A DNA stretch of 64,000 nucleotides, taken from positions 186,001 to 250,000 of the forward strand of contig NZ_JAIWPT010000003.1 in the NCBI RefSeq assembly GCF_021191695.1, given 5' to 3'. Below are positions 56,537 to 62,894 of this stretch, in pieces (position 1 is the stretch's first letter; each line of letters starts with the position of its first letter). Both the position numbers and the translations under genes were made by a program. This stretch comes from Proluteimonas luteida (GTDB lineage: Bacteria > Pseudomonadota > Gammaproteobacteria > Xanthomonadales > Xanthomonadaceae). The notes beneath the pieces were generated by a model. That model did not search any database. It worked only from the letters and a program-made list of their open reading frames with translations, and was not told the origin of the DNA.

Positions 56537-57361
56537 TCAGCCCAGCCGGTCGAGCACCGCCTGCGTCGGCCTGGCCAGGTTCAGGGTATAGAAGTGCAGC
56601 GCCGGCGCGCCGCCGGCGACCAGTCGCTCGCACAGGCGCGCGACGATGTCCGCGCCCAGTTCGCGGATGCCTGCCGCATCGTCGCCGAGCGACTGCATGC
56701 TGCGCAGCATCCAGCGCGGGATCTCCGCGCCGCAGGCCTCCGAGAAGCGCCGCAGCTGGCTGAAGTTCGACACCGGCATGATGCCCGGGATGATCGGGAT
56801 CTCCACCCCGTCGCGGCGCACGCTGTCGACGAAATGGAAGTAGGCGTCGGCGTTGTAGAAATACTGGGTGATCGCCGCGTCCGCGCCGGCTTCCACCTTG
56901 GTCCGGAAATGGCGCAGGTCGGCGCGCGCGTCGCCGGCCTGCGGATGCACTTCCGGATAGCAGCCGACCTCGATGCGGAAACGGTCGCCGAATTCGCTGC
57001 GGATGAACGCCACCAGTTCCGAGGCATAGCGCAGGTCGCCCGGATGGCCCATGCCCGACGGCAGGTCGCCGCGCAGCGCGACGATGCGGGTGCAGCCGAT
57101 CGCCCGGTAGAGCTTGAGCAGCTCGCGGATCTCCTCGCGGCTGCCGCCGACGCACGACAGGTGCGGCGCCGCGTCCAGCCCGTGCTGCTGCTTCAGCCGC
57201 CGCACCGTCTCCGGGGTGTGGCTCAGCGTCGAGCCGCCCGCGCCGAACGTGCACGACACGTATTCGGGTGCATGCACGGCGAGCTTCTTCGCGGTGCGGT
57301 CGAGCTGCGCGCGCTGCTCGTCGTTCTTGGGCGGGTAGAACTCGAAACTGATCGGGGTCAT
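56537..57361 (-). CDS. metF: Methylenetetrahydrofolate reductase
   Basis: FAD enzyme that makes 5-methyl-THF for methionine synthesis; 274 residues. It begins 'MTPISFEFYPPKNDEQRAQL' (catalytic Glu of EFYPPK), followed by 'YVSCTFGAGGSTLSHTPETV', 'APHLSCVGGSREEIRELL', 'IVALRGDLPSGMGHPGDLRY', 'EVGCYPEVHPQA' and 'DAAITQYFYNADAYFHFVDS'. The C-terminus 'PALHFYTLNLARPTQAVLDR' is also typical. A good promoter is seen 29-56 nt upstream. ahcY, metE and metH are not in the window. Confidence 0.96.
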   Translation of the reverse strand: MTPISFEFYPPKNDEQRAQLDRTAKKLAVHAPEYVSCTFGAGGSTLSHTPETVRRLKQQHGLDAAPHLSCVGGSREEIRELLKLYRAIGCTRIVALRGDLPSGMGHPGDLRYASELVAFIRSEFGDRFRIEVGCYPEVHPQAGDARADLRHFRTKVEAGADAAITQYFYNADAYFHFVDSVRRDGVEIPIIPGIMPVSNFSQLRRFSEACGAEIPRWMLRSMQSLGDDAAGIRELGADIVARLCERLVAGGAPALHFYTLNLARPTQAVLDRLG

Positions 57362-57389
57362 CGCGTCGGACGGGGCGAGGGTGGTGGGG

Positions 57390-57417
57390 ATTATATCTCT
57401 TTATCGCGATGGATCAA
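57390..57417 (-). promoter_or_regulatory. Sigma-70-type promoter of metF
   Basis: On the minus strand TTGATC (57412-57417) and TATAAT (57390-57395) are separated by 16 nt, giving a leader of about 20-25 nt before the ATG at 57361. The -10 box is a perfect match. Confidence 0.7.
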
Positions 57418-57529
57418 TTTTGTTTGCCCGCCGCCACTACCCGTGTGCGGTCTGTCCCGGCGTCCATGCCACCGATACCGGAAGAGGGCCCCACGGAACC
57501 GCCCCGGGACTTGGCCGTTGCGCGCGGCA

Positions 57530-57555
57530 TCGATATATTCGGACGAATATATTGA
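57530..57555. promoter_or_regulatory. ModE-type operator 1, before the small secreted protein/di-haem pair
   Basis: TCGATATATTC (57530-57540), GGAC, GAATATATTGA (57545-57555): 11-bp arms with one mismatched pair. It has the same size, spacer and core (TATATTC-N4-GAATATA) as the site at 59617. Read as CGxTATAT-N8-ATATAxxG it follows the E. coli ModE operator layout. It ends 13 nt before the start codon, so binding there would block transcription or initiation. Confidence 0.78.
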
Positions 57556-57568
57556 ACGGGTCCGCCCC

Positions 57569-58126
57569 ATGTTGAAGCGTCCGGCGCATCGCGCCCTGCT
57601 GGTTGCGTTGCTTGCCGTCGGCCCGGCATCGGCTGGCGAGCCCGTCGTGTCGCCGCCTCCGGCGGGCTGCGACACGTTCTCGTGGGATGTGGCGCGGGAG
57701 CTGGCTGCGCTCGCCGCTGTGCCCGTGGCGATCACGGCGGGCGGCGGCGGTCCGGACGGCGTCGTTCGCATCGAGACGGAGACGTTGTACGGCGCCCGCC
57801 TGTTGCCGCAGCGCGATGTGGCCCTGGCCGCCCGCCCCGGCAAGCCGATGCTCGACGACGACGCCCATGCCGGGCTGTTGACCTTCCGGGTGCCCGCCGA
57901 CGGCCGCTACCGGGTCTCGATCACCACCGGGCACTGGATCGACGTCGTCGACGCCGGCCGGATCGTGCCGTCGCTGGACTTCCAGGGGCGGCGGGGCTGC
58001 CCGCTGGTGCACAAGATCGTCGAGTTCGAACTGCCGGCCGGCCGCGATCTGGTACTGCAGTTCGCAGGCGGCGCGGCGGAAGAGGCGGGTGTGGTGATCA
58101 CCGCGGTCGCCAACGCACCGAAGTGA
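57569..58126 (+). CDS. Small secreted protein of unknown function, paired with the di-haem oxidoreductase
   Basis: 185 residues, not recognised. Signal peptide 'AHRALLVALLAVGPASAGE'. The mature protein is short and beta-rich: 'CDTFSWDVARELAALAAVPV' (about 34), 'VRIETETLYGARLLPQRDVA', 'LLTFRVPADGRYRVSITTGH' (about 111), 'FQGRRGCPLVHKIVEFELPA' (about 147) and a last strand 'AGVVITAVANA'. There are two Cys, which could form a disulphide. This looks like a small jelly-roll or carbohydrate-binding-like fold, but no family is certain. A ModE-type operator lies just before it. The stop overlaps the start of the di-haem gene (GTGA), so the two are translated together. Confidence 0.8.
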   Translation: MLKRPAHRALLVALLAVGPASAGEPVVSPPPAGCDTFSWDVARELAALAAVPVAITAGGGGPDGVVRIETETLYGARLLPQRDVALAARPGKPMLDDDAHAGLLTFRVPADGRYRVSITTGHWIDVVDAGRIVPSLDFQGRRGCPLVHKIVEFELPAGRDLVLQFAGGAAEEAGVVITAVANAPK

Positions 58127-59436
58127 GGTCCGCGTCCGGCCGGCCCGCCGGTCTCGTCGTCGTGGCGGCCCTGCTTGCCGCGACCGCCGCTGCGGTGGTC
58201 GACGAGCAGCCGGATGGACGCACGCCGGGCGCCTGGCGCGCGCTGGATGCCGACGAGGCCGCGCGTTTCGATCTCGGGCATGCCGTCTTCAACACGTCCT
58301 GGGTGCCTGCGGGCCAGCCGGCCGGGCGCCGCGACGGTCTCGGTCCACTGTTCAATTCGGTTTCCTGCGATGCCTGCCACAACAGCCGCCGGCGCGGGCG
58401 CGGGCCGCTGGACGACGGCCCGGCGCCGAGCGATTTCGTGCTCCAGGTCGGGCAGCGGCAGGCCGACGGCGGCATCGCGCGCGGGCATCCGCGTTTCGGC
58501 CATGTCGTCAATACCGATGCGGTCGCCGGGTTCGTGCCCGAGGCCGCGGTTTCGATCCGCTACCGCGCACGGCCGCATGCGCGTCCCGACGGCAGCCGCA
58601 TCACCCTGTGGTCGCCGGCATACCAGGTCGAGACGCCGGATGGCGCGCCACTGCCGGACGACCTGGTGCTGATGCCGCGGATGGCTCCGTCGGCACAGGG
58701 AGTCGGCCTGCTGGAGGCGATTCCCGACAGTGCCATCCTGGCCGGCGCGCAGCCACGCCCCGGCGGCCCCCGGGGAGAACCCGCCTGGATCGACGCTGGC
58801 AACGGCCGCGTGCTCGGCCGCTTCGGCTGGCAGGGGACGGAGGCTACCGTCGCCAGCCAGGTCGCGGTCGCGTTCGCACGCGAGATGGGCCTCACCAGCG
58901 CGATGATCGAGGCCATCGACTGCGCGTCGCACGATGATGCCTGCCGCAATGCCGCGCATGGCGGCACGCCCGAAGTGGAAGCGGAGCTGTTCGAGGCGGT
59001 GCTGGCGTTCCAGCGCCTGGAAACGGTGCGGCGCACGCCGGACGCGGCCCGTCGCCTGCGCGAATCCCGCGACGGCGCCCGGCTGTTCGCCAACACCGGC
59101 TGCGGCGACTGCCACCGCAGTGGCTGGACCACGCACGACGGGCTGCGCATCGATCCGTATACCGACCTGCTGCTGCACGACCTCGGCGATGCGCTTGCCG
59201 ACCGCGACATCCATGGCACTCCGCTGCGCAGCCGCTGGCGGACCGCTCCACTGTGGGGCATCAGCACCGCGCTCGAAGGCGGGCGCCCGATCCGCCTGCT
59301 GCACGACGGGCGCGCACGCAGCATCGAGGAAGCCATCGCCTGGCATGGCGGCGCGGCCGCTCCGGCCCGGGCGCGCTTCGACGCGCTCCATGCCGAAGAG
59401 CGCCAGTGCCTGATCGACTGGGTGTCCTCGCTCTAG
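58123..59436 (+). CDS. DUF1111 di-haem oxidoreductase-like protein
   Basis: 437 residues. The N-terminus has a hydrophobic span (about 9-25, 'AGLVVVAALLAATAAAVV') that is a signal peptide or anchor. Two CxxCH haem-c sites are seen, 'SCDACHNSRRRG' (82-86) and 'GCGDCHRSGW' (327-331), with Met residues near 184-187 as possible axial ligands. 'GLGPLFNSVSCDACH' and the late 'RDIHGTPLRSRWRTAPLWG' with 'RLLHDGRARSIEEAIAWHGG' are hallmarks of the DUF1111/MauG-CCP superfamily ('thiol oxidoreductase'). Such genes are often next to imelysin or iron-uptake genes; here the partner is the small protein. Start GTG 58123 overlaps the previous stop. Confidence 0.88.
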   Translation: MRSASGRPAGLVVVAALLAATAAAVVDEQPDGRTPGAWRALDADEAARFDLGHAVFNTSWVPAGQPAGRRDGLGPLFNSVSCDACHNSRRRGRGPLDDGPAPSDFVLQVGQRQADGGIARGHPRFGHVVNTDAVAGFVPEAAVSIRYRARPHARPDGSRITLWSPAYQVETPDGAPLPDDLVLMPRMAPSAQGVGLLEAIPDSAILAGAQPRPGGPRGEPAWIDAGNGRVLGRFGWQGTEATVASQVAVAFAREMGLTSAMIEAIDCASHDDACRNAAHGGTPEVEAELFEAVLAFQRLETVRRTPDAARRLRESRDGARLFANTGCGDCHRSGWTTHDGLRIDPYTDLLLHDLGDALADRDIHGTPLRSRWRTAPLWGISTALEGGRPIRLLHDGRARSIEEAIAWHGGAAAPARARFDALHAEERQCLIDWVSSL

Positions 59437-59518
59437 GGCCTGTCATCCATTGCCGGATGGCAGGCGCGGCCCTGCGGGCAAGACCCGACGCCGGCTACAG
59501 GAAATGGATGGCAGGCCC
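59436..59518. repeat. 83-bp element with 16-bp terminal inverted repeats after the di-haem gene
   Basis: GGGCCTGTCATCCATT (59436-59451) and AATGGATGGCAGGCCC (59503-59518) are inverted copies with one mismatch. The first base is the last base of the stop codon TAG. Size, position and the CCTGTC..G.CAGG ends match the element after relA (37255). The following bases hold another dyad, CGGCGGAAAC (59531-59540) and GTTTCCGCCG (59565-59574). Confidence 0.65.
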
Positions 59519-59616
59519 CGGCAATGTGGACGGCGGAAACGTTCGGAACTTCGTCGCCTGGACGGTTTCCGCCGCCCGCTTCCGGGGCGCATCCCGGTTG
59601 AGCTGCGGTGACGGTA

Positions 59617-59642
59617 TCGTTATATTCTCGTGAATATAACGA
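59617..59642. promoter_or_regulatory. ModE-type operator 2, before the TonB-dependent receptor
   Basis: TCGTTATATTC (59617-59627), TCGT, GAATATAACGA (59632-59642): a perfect dyad with 11-bp arms. Read as CGTTATAT-N8-ATATAACG it has exactly the half-sites and 8-nt spacing of the E. coli modA operator. It lies 104 nt before the receptor start. A hairpin AGGCCGCC-CCGGG-GGCGGCCT (59644-59664) follows directly in the leader. Confidence 0.85.
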
Positions 59643-59745
59643 CAGGCCGCCCCGGGGGCGGCCTCCCCGGATGCCGGCAGCAGCGACGGACCGCCCCCAC
59701 AGGCCGTCCGCGGTGCCGCGCATCACCACACCAGAGAACCGTCCC

Positions 59746-61812
59746 ATGCGCCCATCCGCCCGTCGCCTGTCCCTTGCCATCGCCTGTGCGCTGGCTCTGC
59801 CCGTCGCCGCGCATGCCGCGGAAGGTGCCGCCACGCCTGACGACGTCTTCACCCTCGGCCAGATCACCGTGACCGCCGAGCGTCCGGACGCCGTCGCCAC
59901 CGGCGACGACGTGATCACCCGCGAGGAGATGTGGACCTTCAACACGCTGACCCTCGACGACGCGGTCAAGCTGACGCCCGGCGTGATGACCACCCAGGAC
60001 AGCAACGGCCGCCGCAACGAGCACGACATCTTCGTGCGCGGCTTCGGGCGCTGGCAGGTGCCGCTGTCGATCGACGGCGTGCGCATCTACCTGCCGGCCG
60101 ACAACCGCCTGGACTTCCGCCGCTTCCTCACCGCCGACCTGGCCGAGGTGCAGGTCAGGAAGGGCTACGTGTCGGTGATCGACGGGCCCGGTGCCATGGG
60201 CGGTGCGATCAACCTGGTCACGCGCAAGCCGACCGAGCCGTTCGAGGCCCGGTTCCAGGCCGGCCTCGATCTCGGCCGCGACGGCAGCCACGACGCCTGG
60301 AACGGCTATGCTTCGGTCGGCACCCGCCAGGACATGTTCTATGCCCAGGCGAGCGTCAGCTACCAGGACCGCAAGCACTGGCGGCTGCCCGGCGATTTCG
60401 AGGGCACCTCGATCCAGGCCCCGGGCGCGCGCGACCGCTCGGCCAGCCGCGACTCGCGCGTCAACCTGAAGTTCGGGTTCGTGCCCAATGCCAGCGACGA
60501 GTACACCCTCAGCTACACCCGCCAGGACGGCAGCAAGGGCGCGCCGCTGAACGTCTACAACGACCCGCCGAATCCGCCCAACAGCTACTGGGACTGGCCG
60601 ATGTGGGACATCGAGAACCTCTACTTCCTGTCGAACACCCGCTTCAGCGACGCCACCCACCTGAAGACCAAGGTCTACTACAACACCTTCGACAACGCGC
60701 TCTACGCGTACGACGATGCCAGCTACACCACGCAGTCGAACAACGGCCGCTTCCAGAGCATCTATGGCGACAAGGGCTACGGCGCCAGCGTCGAGTTCGG
60801 TTTCCGCCTGCTGCCCGACAGCGACAGCCGCGTCGCCGCGCACTGGCGCAGCGACCGCCATTCCGAATACAACCTCAACCGCCCGACCCACCCGACCCTG
60901 AGTTCGCGCGAACCGACCCAGCACAACCGCGAGGACACCTGGTCGCTGGCGCTGGAGAACACCTGGCACGCCAGCGACACCGTCGACGTGCTGGTCGGCG
61001 TCAGCCACGACCGCAACGACGCCAAGCAGGCGCAGGAATACAACGAGACGCAGGGGCTGTTCGAGTATCCGACCGGCGGCAGCGATGCCTGGAACGGACA
61101 GGCCGCGGTGTACTGGCAGCAGAGCGCGGATTCCCGCTTCGGCGCCAGCCTGTCCTCGCGCACGCGGTTCGCGACCACCTTCGAGCGTTTCAGCACCCGC
61201 TTCGGCACCGCGGTGCCCAACCCCGACCTGTCCAGCGAGCGCGGCACCAACCTCGAACTGTCGTGGGAGCGCCGCATGTCCGACGATGTCCATTTCAACA
61301 CCGCGGTCTTCTACTCCGACGTCCGCGACATGATCCAGACGGTGATCGTCGACGCCGGTCCGCCGCAGATGACCCAGACCCGCAACGTCGGCGATGGCGA
61401 GTACTACGGCGCCGAATTCGGCGGCCAGGCCCGGCTGTCCGACACGTGGGTGCTGGGCGGCAATGCGACGTGGCTGCACCGCACGATCAAGGATCCGTTG
61501 CAGCCGGAGTACCGTCCCACCGGCGTGCCGCAGTACCAAGCGCTGCTGTACGCCACCTGGTCGCCGCTGGCGCGCTGGTCGTTCACGCCGAGCATCGAGT
61601 TCGCCGACGACCGCTGGAACGAGGGACCCGGCGGCGCCTACATCCGCACCGGCCAGTACACCCTGGCCAACCTGCAGGTGCAGTGGGACGTGCGCAGCGA
61701 CGTCCGCGTCGCCTTCGGCGGCCGCAATCTGCTGGACGAGGCATACGAACTGGCCTGGGGCTTCCCGGAACAGGGGCGCTCGTTCTACGCCAAGCTGCAA
61801 GTCGGCTTCTGA
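59746..61812 (+). CDS. TonB-dependent outer-membrane receptor under ModE-type control
   Basis: 688 residues. The signal peptide ('LSLAIACALALPVAAHAAE') is followed by a TonB-box-like 'DDVFTLGQITVTAERPD' (about 31-47). The plug domain (about 50-165) has 'LTLDDAVKLTPGVMTTQD', 'IFVRGFGRWQVPLSIDGVRI' and 'VRKGYVSVIDGPGAMGGAIN', then 'LVTRKPTEPFEA'. The barrel (about 170-688) ends 'QGRSFYAKLQVGF' with terminal Phe. The nearest known groups by appearance are siderophore/metal receptors. Because it sits behind a ModE operator and next to a ModE-like gene, the likely cargo is molybdate or a molybdate complex, but sequence alone does not prove it. Nothing upstream of ATG 59746 in frame is convincing. 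Confidence 0.9.
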   Translation: MRPSARRLSLAIACALALPVAAHAAEGAATPDDVFTLGQITVTAERPDAVATGDDVITREEMWTFNTLTLDDAVKLTPGVMTTQDSNGRRNEHDIFVRGFGRWQVPLSIDGVRIYLPADNRLDFRRFLTADLAEVQVRKGYVSVIDGPGAMGGAINLVTRKPTEPFEARFQAGLDLGRDGSHDAWNGYASVGTRQDMFYAQASVSYQDRKHWRLPGDFEGTSIQAPGARDRSASRDSRVNLKFGFVPNASDEYTLSYTRQDGSKGAPLNVYNDPPNPPNSYWDWPMWDIENLYFLSNTRFSDATHLKTKVYYNTFDNALYAYDDASYTTQSNNGRFQSIYGDKGYGASVEFGFRLLPDSDSRVAAHWRSDRHSEYNLNRPTHPTLSSREPTQHNREDTWSLALENTWHASDTVDVLVGVSHDRNDAKQAQEYNETQGLFEYPTGGSDAWNGQAAVYWQQSADSRFGASLSSRTRFATTFERFSTRFGTAVPNPDLSSERGTNLELSWERRMSDDVHFNTAVFYSDVRDMIQTVIVDAGPPQMTQTRNVGDGEYYGAEFGGQARLSDTWVLGGNATWLHRTIKDPLQPEYRPTGVPQYQALLYATWSPLARWSFTPSIEFADDRWNEGPGGAYIRTGQYTLANLQVQWDVRSDVRVAFGGRNLLDEAYELAWGFPEQGRSFYAKLQVGF

Positions 61813-61821
61813 CCGCTGTCG

Positions 61822-61851
61822 CCGGCCCGGCGGTCACCCGCGCCGGGCCGG
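61822..61851. terminator. Bidirectional hairpin between the receptor and modE-like genes
   Basis: CCGGCCCGGCG (61822-61832), loop GTCACCCG, CGCCGGGCCGG (61841-61851): perfect 11-bp stem. It sits between two convergent stop codons. There is no T tract on either side, so efficiency is uncertain. Confidence 0.5.
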
Positions 61852-61856
61852 TGCCG

Positions 61857-62225
61857 TCATTCGTCCTGCGGCGGCCGCAGCCGCGCATGCAACCAGGCGA
61901 GTTCATCGGCGACGGCCTCGGCGCTGCGGGCCTCGATCCGGCGATAGGCCGCCAGCACCTGCTCGCCGAACGGCGTCAGGGTGGCGCCGCCGCCACCGCT
62001 GCCGCCCTTGCTGGTGTGCACGACCGGTTCCCTGAAAAAGCGGTTCATCGCGTCCACCAGGTCCCAGGCGCGCTTGTAGCTCATCTTCATGCGCCGGCCG
62101 GCGGCGGAGATGGAGCCGGTGTCGCGGATGCCGTCCAGCAGATCGGCCTTGCCGGGCCCCAGCACTACATCCGGGTCGAAGATCACCCGCAGCCGCAGCC
62201 TTCCCGGTCCCCGCTTCGTCGCCAT
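61857..62225 (-). CDS. ModE-type winged-helix regulator lacking molybdate-binding domains
   Basis: 122 residues, LysR-like winged helix of the ModE N-terminal family: 'RVIFDPDVVLGPGKADLLDG' (about 15), 'IRDTGSISAAGRRMKMSYKR' (recognition helix, about 32-51), 'AWDLVDAMNRFFREPVVHTS' and the glycine-rich wing 'KGGSGGGGATLTPFGEQVL'. E. coli ModE has two extra TOBE/Mop domains that bind molybdate; these are absent, as in the single-domain ModE proteins of many bacteria. The two operators nearby fit this DNA-binding class. It faces the receptor gene across the hairpin and is divergent from the next gene. How it senses molybdate is an open question. Confidence 0.88.
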   Translation of the reverse strand: MATKRGPGRLRLRVIFDPDVVLGPGKADLLDGIRDTGSISAAGRRMKMSYKRAWDLVDAMNRFFREPVVHTSKGGSGGGGATLTPFGEQVLAAYRRIEARSAEAVADELAWLHARLRPPQDE

Positions 62226-62336
62226 GGCGTCCCGTATCCAACCGCAGTCGATGCATTACGGACATCATAGTCGCGCCCGGTCCGGGGGCCGGGGCTGGTG
62301 TTGTACCGTGTCGGCCACCTCCAGGCGCATCCGACC

Positions 62337-62894
62337 ATGTCCATCGTCCTGACCCCGTTCGCCCGTACCCGCCTGTTCCCGCGCCCGCCGCGCGGCAACA
62401 CCATCCAGGACTGTACGCCGGAGGCCTTCGAGCAGCGGCTCAACGACGAGGCGCCGACGCGCGTGCTCGACGGCTACGCGCCGTTCTGCAGACTGCATGT
62501 GCATCGCAACTGGACCTCGACGCGCTGCCTGACCGTGCCGATCACCGACAGCAACCGGCACCTGCTGCGCTCGGGCTACGAGGCGCGGTCTTCCGCGGAG
62601 TTGCCGGTGCTGGTGCGCTGGTTCGAAGGCGTCGAGGTGCCGGTCGCGCGCTACCTGCTGCCGATCCTCTACAGCCGCGCGCAGCTGGCGAAGGAGGGCG
62701 CGCCGATCGATGCCGACTGGGGCGTCGTCGGCTGCCTGTACACGATGGCGCCCGAGGAGATTCCGATGGCGCCGATCACGATGCTGCGCAATGCGCTGGG
62801 CGTCGAGGAGGGCGGCTCGGGCGTGGCGCTGGACCGCGAGGCCTACCGGCGCAGCGTCGACTTCTGGCAGCACAACGCCAACTGGCGGCCGTAG
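62337..62894 (+). CDS. DUF3228-family protein
   Basis: 185 residues, cytoplasmic, function unknown. Conserved-looking parts are 'FVLTPFAR'-like start 'MSIVLTPFARTRLFPRPPRG', 'AFEQRLNDEAPTRVLDGYAP' and 'FCRLHVHRNWTSTRCLTVPI', then 'ARYLLPILYSRAQLAKEGAP', 'DWGVVGCLYTMAPEEIPMAP' and 'GSGVALDREAYRRSVDFW'. It matches my recollection of the DUF3228 family found in some gammaproteobacteria. No signal peptide or catalytic site is evident. It starts at ATG 62337, divergent from the ModE-like gene (111-nt gap with no clear second operator). Confidence 0.7.
   Translation: MSIVLTPFARTRLFPRPPRGNTIQDCTPEAFEQRLNDEAPTRVLDGYAPFCRLHVHRNWTSTRCLTVPITDSNRHLLRSGYEARSSAELPVLVRWFEGVEVPVARYLLPILYSRAQLAKEGAPIDADWGVVGCLYTMAPEEIPMAPITMLRNALGVEEGGSGVALDREAYRRSVDFWQHNANWRP

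Follow-up and report, generated by a model that had tools for sequence, protein, structure and literature searches.

The window analysed here is a stretch of 64,000 nucleotides from one contig of Proluteimonas luteida, and the locus in question (positions 57530-62225) contains four genes and two inverted repeats (dyads) that resemble operators of the molybdate-responsive regulator ModE. Dyad 1 (57530-57555, no strand) precedes a gene for a secreted protein of 185 amino acids (57569..58126, plus strand) and a gene for a di-haem protein of the DHOR (DUF1111) family (58123..59436, plus strand), the GTG start codon of which (58123) overlaps the stop codon of the former gene. Dyad 2 (59617-59642, no strand) precedes the gene for a TonB-dependent receptor of 688 amino acids (59746..61812, plus strand), and a gene for a single-domain ModE-type regulator of 122 amino acids (61857..62225, minus strand) is convergent to the receptor gene. 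This layout had been proposed in a preliminary description of the DNA, and it was borne out by the coordinates and the domain matches.

Dyad 1 has the structure TCGATATATTC-GGAC-GAATATATTGA and is located 13 nt upstream of the start of the secreted-protein gene, dyad 2 has the structure TCGTTATATTC-TCGT-GAATATAACGA and is located 103 nt upstream of the receptor start. Two dyads with 11-bp arms and a 4-nt spacer had been described earlier; the positions were correct, and the arms of dyad 2 are perfect (11/11), but those of dyad 1 agree at only 10 of the 11 positions. At the sequence level, both carry the CGNTATAT-N8-ATATANCG dyad that is typical for operators in promoters of molybdenum genes, and they share core letters and spacing with the ModE consensus ATCGCTATATA-N6-TATATAACGAT printed in an excerpt of PMC2700814. 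When the window was shuffled 100 times with its dinucleotides preserved, a pattern built from both dyads never matched. As it had been derived after the sites were seen, conservation is a better test than the shuffles. In the whole source genome (4,119,078 bases, 51 contigs) dyads 1 and 2 were the only sites with up to three mismatches, and a reversed control pattern yielded no match at the same tolerance. A consensus scan of positions 57340-62400 revealed four promoter-like sites, compared to a mean of 0.3 in shuffles, which is a sequence prediction and no proof of transcription. In two of them, TTGGCC-N17-TATATT (57511..57539, plus strand) and TTGAGC-N17-TATATT (59598..59626, plus strand), the -10 box lies inside the left arm of dyad 1 and dyad 2, respectively. 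This shared -35/-10 layout was also sought upstream of the receptors of relatives; it is present at both sites of the window and was not demonstrable across genera. Taken together, it is very probable that the two dyads are ModE sites.

The 122-residue regulator matched the ModE model TIGR00637 with 84.9 bits (E 3.1e-24), which is under the curated cut-off of 98.5. Its closest relative in the PDB was 2ijl, a protein of 135 amino acids annotated as 'molybdenum-binding transcriptional repressor' (E 8.6e-33), followed by the ModE of Escherichia coli (1b9m/1o7l, E 8e-12), and thus it contains a winged-helix DNA-binding domain of the ModE type. A Pfam scan of the protein yielded no TOBE match and hence no C-terminal Mop/TOBE molybdate-sensing domains as they are present in full-length ModE. 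Because the protein stops at residue 122 and lacks a TOBE match, it was named 'ModE-type, single-domain' and not full ModE. The modABC genes of the source genome are located on a different contig (C3), and the ModC encoded there (L072, 3255-3938) comprises only 227 amino acids and also has no TOBE match, so that the two usual molybdate-sensing modules are absent here. The source genome contains a second ModE-like helix-turn-helix, which is fused to a PBP_like domain (PF12727; L017, contig C6:67550-70804). In other genomes, weaker ModE matches were found within long open frames (G014, G015, G030, G1066), and short ModE genes (116-123 amino acids) were found near contig starts (G030 C19 and C42 as two copies, G020 C7, G035 C78, G414 C5), which may point to a repeated or mobile region.

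The receptor consists of a plug (PF07715) and a beta-barrel (PF00593), and both were present in a structural model with a mean predicted local distance difference test (pLDDT) score of 84.3, which was based on an alignment of 21 rows. Comparison of the model with BtuB, FecA, OprC, and ZnuD using VIA-align resulted in Z values of 34-36 and root mean square deviations of 2.4-3.1 over 525-591 residues. Including CirA, the fold matches were within about 2 Z units without a clear winner, and the sequence identities were 13-20% among the 50 matches listed. The fold comparison therefore groups the receptor with TonB transporters as a whole and carries no information about the ligand. The best NCBIfam match was TonB-siderophor (TIGR01783) with 140.9 bits, and the curated cut-off of 223.5 was not reached. 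Four residues, W282, W284, P285, and D288, were invariant in all 21 aligned members of the receptor family (a 22nd member was left out of the alignment), and as judged from its sequences the family appears to be distinct from BtuB, FecA, OprC, ZnuD, and CirA.

The distribution of the receptor was analysed at first within the genus. It was present in 4 of 41 genomes (G000, G014, G015, G030) with identities of 71-100%. The search with the dyad (up to one mismatch) covered 52 genomes of the genus, including 11 that were not among these 41, and yielded exactly the same four genomes, each with one dyad before the receptor gene. Across the 41 genomes searched for both, this co-occurrence has a Fisher p value of 1e-5. 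ModE (E up to 1e-16) was detected in 15 of the 52 genomes; within the set of 41 genomes it was present in all four receptor genomes versus 10 of 37 receptor-less genomes (p 0.01). In two receptor-less genomes pieces of the locus adjoin the ModE gene, i.e., a 27-residue piece of the receptor with 85% identity in G023 (L044) and a 93-residue match to the secreted protein with 75% identity in G003 (L163), and these fragments are possibly relics or eroded copies of the locus.

Outside of the genus, a search of the class with the receptor of the window (E up to 1e-60) identified relatives in 7 of 369 genomes, and a profile of ten receptors (E up to 1e-100) identified them in 9 of 398 genomes of the phylum and 9 of 299 genomes of the order. 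The searches at the four levels resulted in 22 different receptor genomes, one of which (G565) is outside the class of the window, and the receptors from other genera had identities of 30-45%. For each of the 22 receptor loci a stretch of 12-19 kb was read, and 20 loci of other TonB receptors of the genus (330 kb in all) served as controls. The dyad (up to two mismatches) was found in 15 of the 22 receptor loci and in none of the 20 control loci. In 12 loci it was located at most 250 bp before the receptor gene, namely in 4/4 of the genus and in 8/18 of other genera, and thus the predicted conservation of the sites before orthologous receptors was verified to this extent. A gene for ModE, ModA/B, or TupA/B was present in 13 of the 22 loci. 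A dyad, one of these genes, or both occurred near the receptor in 18/22 loci compared to 0/20 control loci, which links the proposed receptor family to molybdenum/tungsten genes or ModE dyads.

Genome-wide scans were in agreement with these results for part of the family. Dyads with up to one mismatch were present in 10 of the 22 receptor genomes. In the seven receptor genomes that belong to the family of the window, all nine dyads were located directly before the receptor gene or the secreted-protein operon, while the reversed control had two matches. A ModE-type domain (E up to 1e-10) is encoded in 21 of the 22 receptor genomes, and the exception, G372, carries TupABC. In the class sample such a domain was found in 64 of 369 genomes, and it was much more frequent in genomes with a receptor match (6/7) than in genomes without (58/362; Fisher 1.3e-4).

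The genes next to the receptors were scored within the stretches read. In G797 the order is modABC, single-domain ModE, dyad, and receptor. The locus of G1028 comprises modABC, full ModE, a perfect dyad, the receptor, a DUF2478 protein, and a BtuF-FecCD-ABC importer, and the loci of G205 and G938 have the same composition with the exception of modABC. In G372 TupABC directly precedes the receptor, which is followed by a binding protein. Further arrangements are ModE, receptor, and modAB (G1066), receptor with modAB, DUF2478, and FecCD (G893), ModE, dyad, receptor, and secreted protein (G595), ModE, receptor, DHOR, and binding protein (G829), and receptor, binding protein, and DHOR (G280, G760, G565). 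Genes similar to modABC are thus found near the receptor in G797, G1028, G893, and G1066, with modC recognized by a generic ABC match. The TupA of G372 is closely similar to the solved tungstate-binding protein 3lr1 (E 4.6e-77), and the NCBIfam Tup models match the G372 proteins with scores under their cut-offs. Importers of the BtuF/FecCD type were present in 9 of the 22 loci. A profile of the BtuF-like proteins from seven of these nine loci matched HI_1472 of Haemophilus influenzae, which we take to be MolA, with 89 bits (E 2.5e-24), compared to 75 bits for an iron-complex protein and 60 bits for BtuF. The DUF2478 protein recurs in operons of the receptor and the BtuF-type importer in 6/22 loci (L061, L062, L088, L094, L095, L096), and on this basis it is a candidate helper for molybdenum or tungsten. 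In G186 a TOBE-only protein is encoded about 6.5 kb beyond the receptor. The presence of ModABC, TupABC, full-length ModE, and MolA-related importers beside the relatives of the receptor fits to an uptake of molybdenum or tungsten. Together with the conservation of the dyads, these neighbours support the earlier proposal of an outer-membrane molybdate-acquisition regulon, with either molybdenum or tungsten as the probable metal.

The occurrence of the operator sequence was also analysed independently of the receptor. An exact search of 84,980 genomes with the 24-bp palindrome at the core of dyad 2 yielded 13 loci. In seven of them (L001, L002, L006, L007, L009, L010, L011) a ModE gene or modA adjoins the palindrome. 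In L006, L010, and L011 the palindrome occurs together with ModE and modABC and without a receptor of the type found in the window, within the 5.5-8 kb read.

At the level of the sequence, the dyads and their conservation are apparent, as are the receptor family and its molybdenum and tungsten neighbours, and together they make it quite likely that the receptor serves the uptake of molybdenum or tungsten. Nearly as likely is the complete reading of the locus, i.e., that it encodes a TonB receptor for a molybdenum or tungsten species and that the convergent single-domain ModE represses it via both dyads. The metal sensing and the nature of the ligand, the binding of ModE, and repression are steps that we infer as follows. 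The receptor would import molybdenum or tungsten species, either the free oxyanion or a small complex, across the outer membrane into the periplasm, where ModABC, which is encoded on another contig, could take on the metal species. The single-domain ModE would bind to both dyads and thus over the -10 boxes of the two promoter-like sites, and at plentiful metal it would most likely repress the receptor gene as well as the secreted-protein/DHOR operon. Repression is favoured because a protein bound over the -10 box would block the promoter. Somewhat less confidently, it can be proposed that a thinly but broadly spread TonB family for a molybdenum or tungsten oxyanion or complex exists, and that the stand-alone ModE of this lineage has visible sites only at this uptake step and not at modABC.

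Several results weigh against this reading and have to be considered. The ModE of E. coli also controls genes for molybdoenzymes, and therefore a ModE site alone is no proof of uptake. The ModE of the window has no Mop/TOBE domain with which it would sense molybdate, and ModE is also present in 10 of the 37 receptor-less genomes of the genus. The idea that the dyad always precedes this receptor family and modABC held true for the receptors within the genus (4/4), but not for the family as a whole (12/22) and not for the modABC of the source genome, which was devoid of a dyad in the genome-wide scan with up to three mismatches. In four receptor loci (G280, G186, G598, G565) the stretch read contains no dyad and no gene for ModE, ModAB, or TupAB, and 12 of the 22 receptor genomes lack any dyad with up to one mismatch. 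In the AT-richer genomes the dyads hardly exceed the reversed control (6 vs. 3 in G568, 2 vs. 1 in G760, 1 vs. 1 in G232), so that the count alone is not telling there. The TupA-type match in G264 is weak (26% identity), and two proteins described only as 'periplasmic binding protein', 4pag (274 bits, E 2e-80) and 4ovk (103 bits), outscore HI_1472 on the BtuF-like profile. In addition, 6 of the 13 exact palindromes are located away from ModE and mod genes, two of them (L005, L012) at the start of genes for LysR-type regulators and without a ModE or mod match in the 8 kb read around the palindrome. The site is thus not exclusive to ModE neighbourhoods.

Two further points concern the design of the comparison. 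Two of the 22 loci (L063, L061) had supplied the markers for TupAB and full-length ModE, so that their own matches are built in; the names given to these proteins by NCBIfam are independent of this. Furthermore, the 20 control loci are partly alike and all stem from one GC-rich genus, and therefore the arm letters were also permuted on the receptor loci themselves. In a draw of 40 arm orders over the whole loci the mean was 0.33 and the maximum 2, and in a further draw of 100 orders over the upstream windows the mean was 0.22 and the maximum 12. All 3,360 orders were then scored upstream of the receptors: 3,281 of them found no locus, the true order found 12, and one near-identical order also found 12. 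The next-highest orders were likewise near-identical to the true arm, showing that the high permutation values stem from arms that are almost the same as the real one.

A variant of this reading, which is possible but the less probable form, is that the receptor imports a complex of molybdenum, tungsten, or vanadium with a catecholate or another 'molybdophore', produced by the cell itself or by others, and not the bare oxyanion. Chelates are the classical cargo of TonB receptors, and by sequence the receptor is closest to siderophore and cobalamin types. The DHOR protein could then be a redox enzyme that acts on the chelate. Against a chelate stand the ModABC or TupABC genes in some receptor loci, which encode importers of bare oxyanions, and OprC and ZnuD, which import bare ions via TonB and thus provide a precedent. 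No obvious genes for the production of a chelate were seen among the starts of the open reading frames read, although no dedicated search was made. In favour of a chelate are three genes for TonB siderophore receptors of Azotobacter, which share operons with ABC transporter parts; according to an excerpt of PMC9542535, they depend on VnfA1 and are on only in the absence of molybdenum and vanadium.

It is unlikely that the locus encodes an ordinary iron-siderophore receptor that came under the control of ModE as a cross-talk between the demands for molybdenum and iron, in spite of the TonB-siderophor model being the best NCBIfam match (140.9 bits, cut-off 223.5). The binding proteins of the importers in the family match MolA better than the named iron-complex or cobalamin proteins, and TupABC and ModABC are among the neighbours. 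No Fur-box-like site was found above background: scored with a Fur-box consensus, the best upstream matches were 11 and 9 of 19 positions, and 300 pieces drawn at random from the window averaged 9.2, with a highest score of 12. Control by iron and Fur, which had been named at the outset as an outcome that would speak against a molybdate regulon, was therefore not supported. It is even less probable that the dyads belong to another regulator, e.g., of the LysR type, and that the ModE gene adjoins by chance, because apart from the palindromes at the LysR-type gene starts in L005 and L012 the dyad accompanies both the receptor and ModE in different genera, and L006, L010, and L011 combine ModE, dyad, and modABC without this receptor in the 5.5-8 kb read.

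The two proteins encoded downstream of dyad 1 look like accessory components, and a helper role in the putative uptake is conceivable for both. The secreted protein had no match in Pfam or NCBIfam, and its family is unassigned. The AlphaFold2 model has a low confidence (mean pLDDT 68.3), and Foldseek matched it to collagen-binding/PPC domains of collagenases and other beta-sandwich domains with a TMq of about 0.4, which suggests, with low confidence, a beta-sandwich fold. Relatives are encoded beside the receptor in G030 (74% identity over 148 residues) and G595 (37% over 150 residues), and the protein was present in 3 of the 22 receptor loci. The DHOR protein belongs to the DUF1111 family on the basis of a PF06537 match with 138.5 bits and two CXXCH motifs at residues 82 and 327, and it had no match to PDB sequences up to an E value of 0.01. 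DHOR was found in 6 of the 22 loci, including G030 (L057, 5409-5765), where its two ends can be recognized but not the parts that bear the haem motifs. A DUF3228 protein of unassigned function (62337-62894) adjoins the ModE gene.

The crossing of the outer membrane by molybdate is generally held to be passive diffusion through porins. If the interpretation is correct, molybdenum or tungsten would join the metals that are actively pumped across the outer membrane, by a TonB receptor that is dedicated to them and switched by a ModE-type regulator, and this would suggest how bacteria manage with very scarce or bound molybdenum. The receptor family would then represent a defined gene set for deletion and assay, and the single-domain ModE poses the question of what acts as the metal sensor when the sensor domain is absent. 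ModE, TonB receptors, ModABC, TupABC, and MolBCA are already known; a TonB family tied to molybdenum/tungsten genes and ModE sites was not found in the literature searched, in which the TonB siderophore receptors of Azotobacter and the secreted ModA with IcmP came nearest. The titles and abstract openings listed from the open-licence literature named no TonB-dependent or outer-membrane receptor for molybdate or tungstate, and an earlier prediction in a regulon database is conceivable. Such a receptor was also absent from excerpts of PMC2631029, PMC4886054, PMC2700814, PMC8602904, PMC9542535, PMC5343134, PMC11734730, PMC12226641, PMC4687298, and PMC8383342.

The locus shares features with several known systems and differs from each of them. 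As in E. coli ModE, the regulator has the winged-helix domain and the sites are CGNTATAT-N8-ATATANCG dyads; in contrast to E. coli, the Mop/TOBE domains are missing, and the visible sites lie before the gene for an outer-membrane receptor and before the secreted-protein/DHOR operon instead of modABC. The single-domain ModE-like protein 2ijl is similar to the regulator over 121 residues. MolBCA, a class II molybdate ABC importer of H. influenzae, is resembled by the importers beside the relatives of the receptor, the binding proteins of which match HI_1472, while no BtuF/FecCD operon was seen in the locus of the window itself. TupABC and ModABC are found beside some of the relatives, but they act only at the inner membrane. 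An active delivery of molybdate at the outer membrane has been described for Pseudomonas aeruginosa, in which, according to an excerpt of the review PMC8602904, a ModA secreted by the H2 type VI secretion system acts with IcmP; unlike the receptor described here, that system uses type VI secretion and an outer-membrane partner of the metalloproteinase type. The receptor has the plug and barrel in common with BtuB, FecA, OprC, ZnuD, and CirA, and it differs from all of them by the molybdenum/tungsten gene neighbours of its family and by the four invariant residues.

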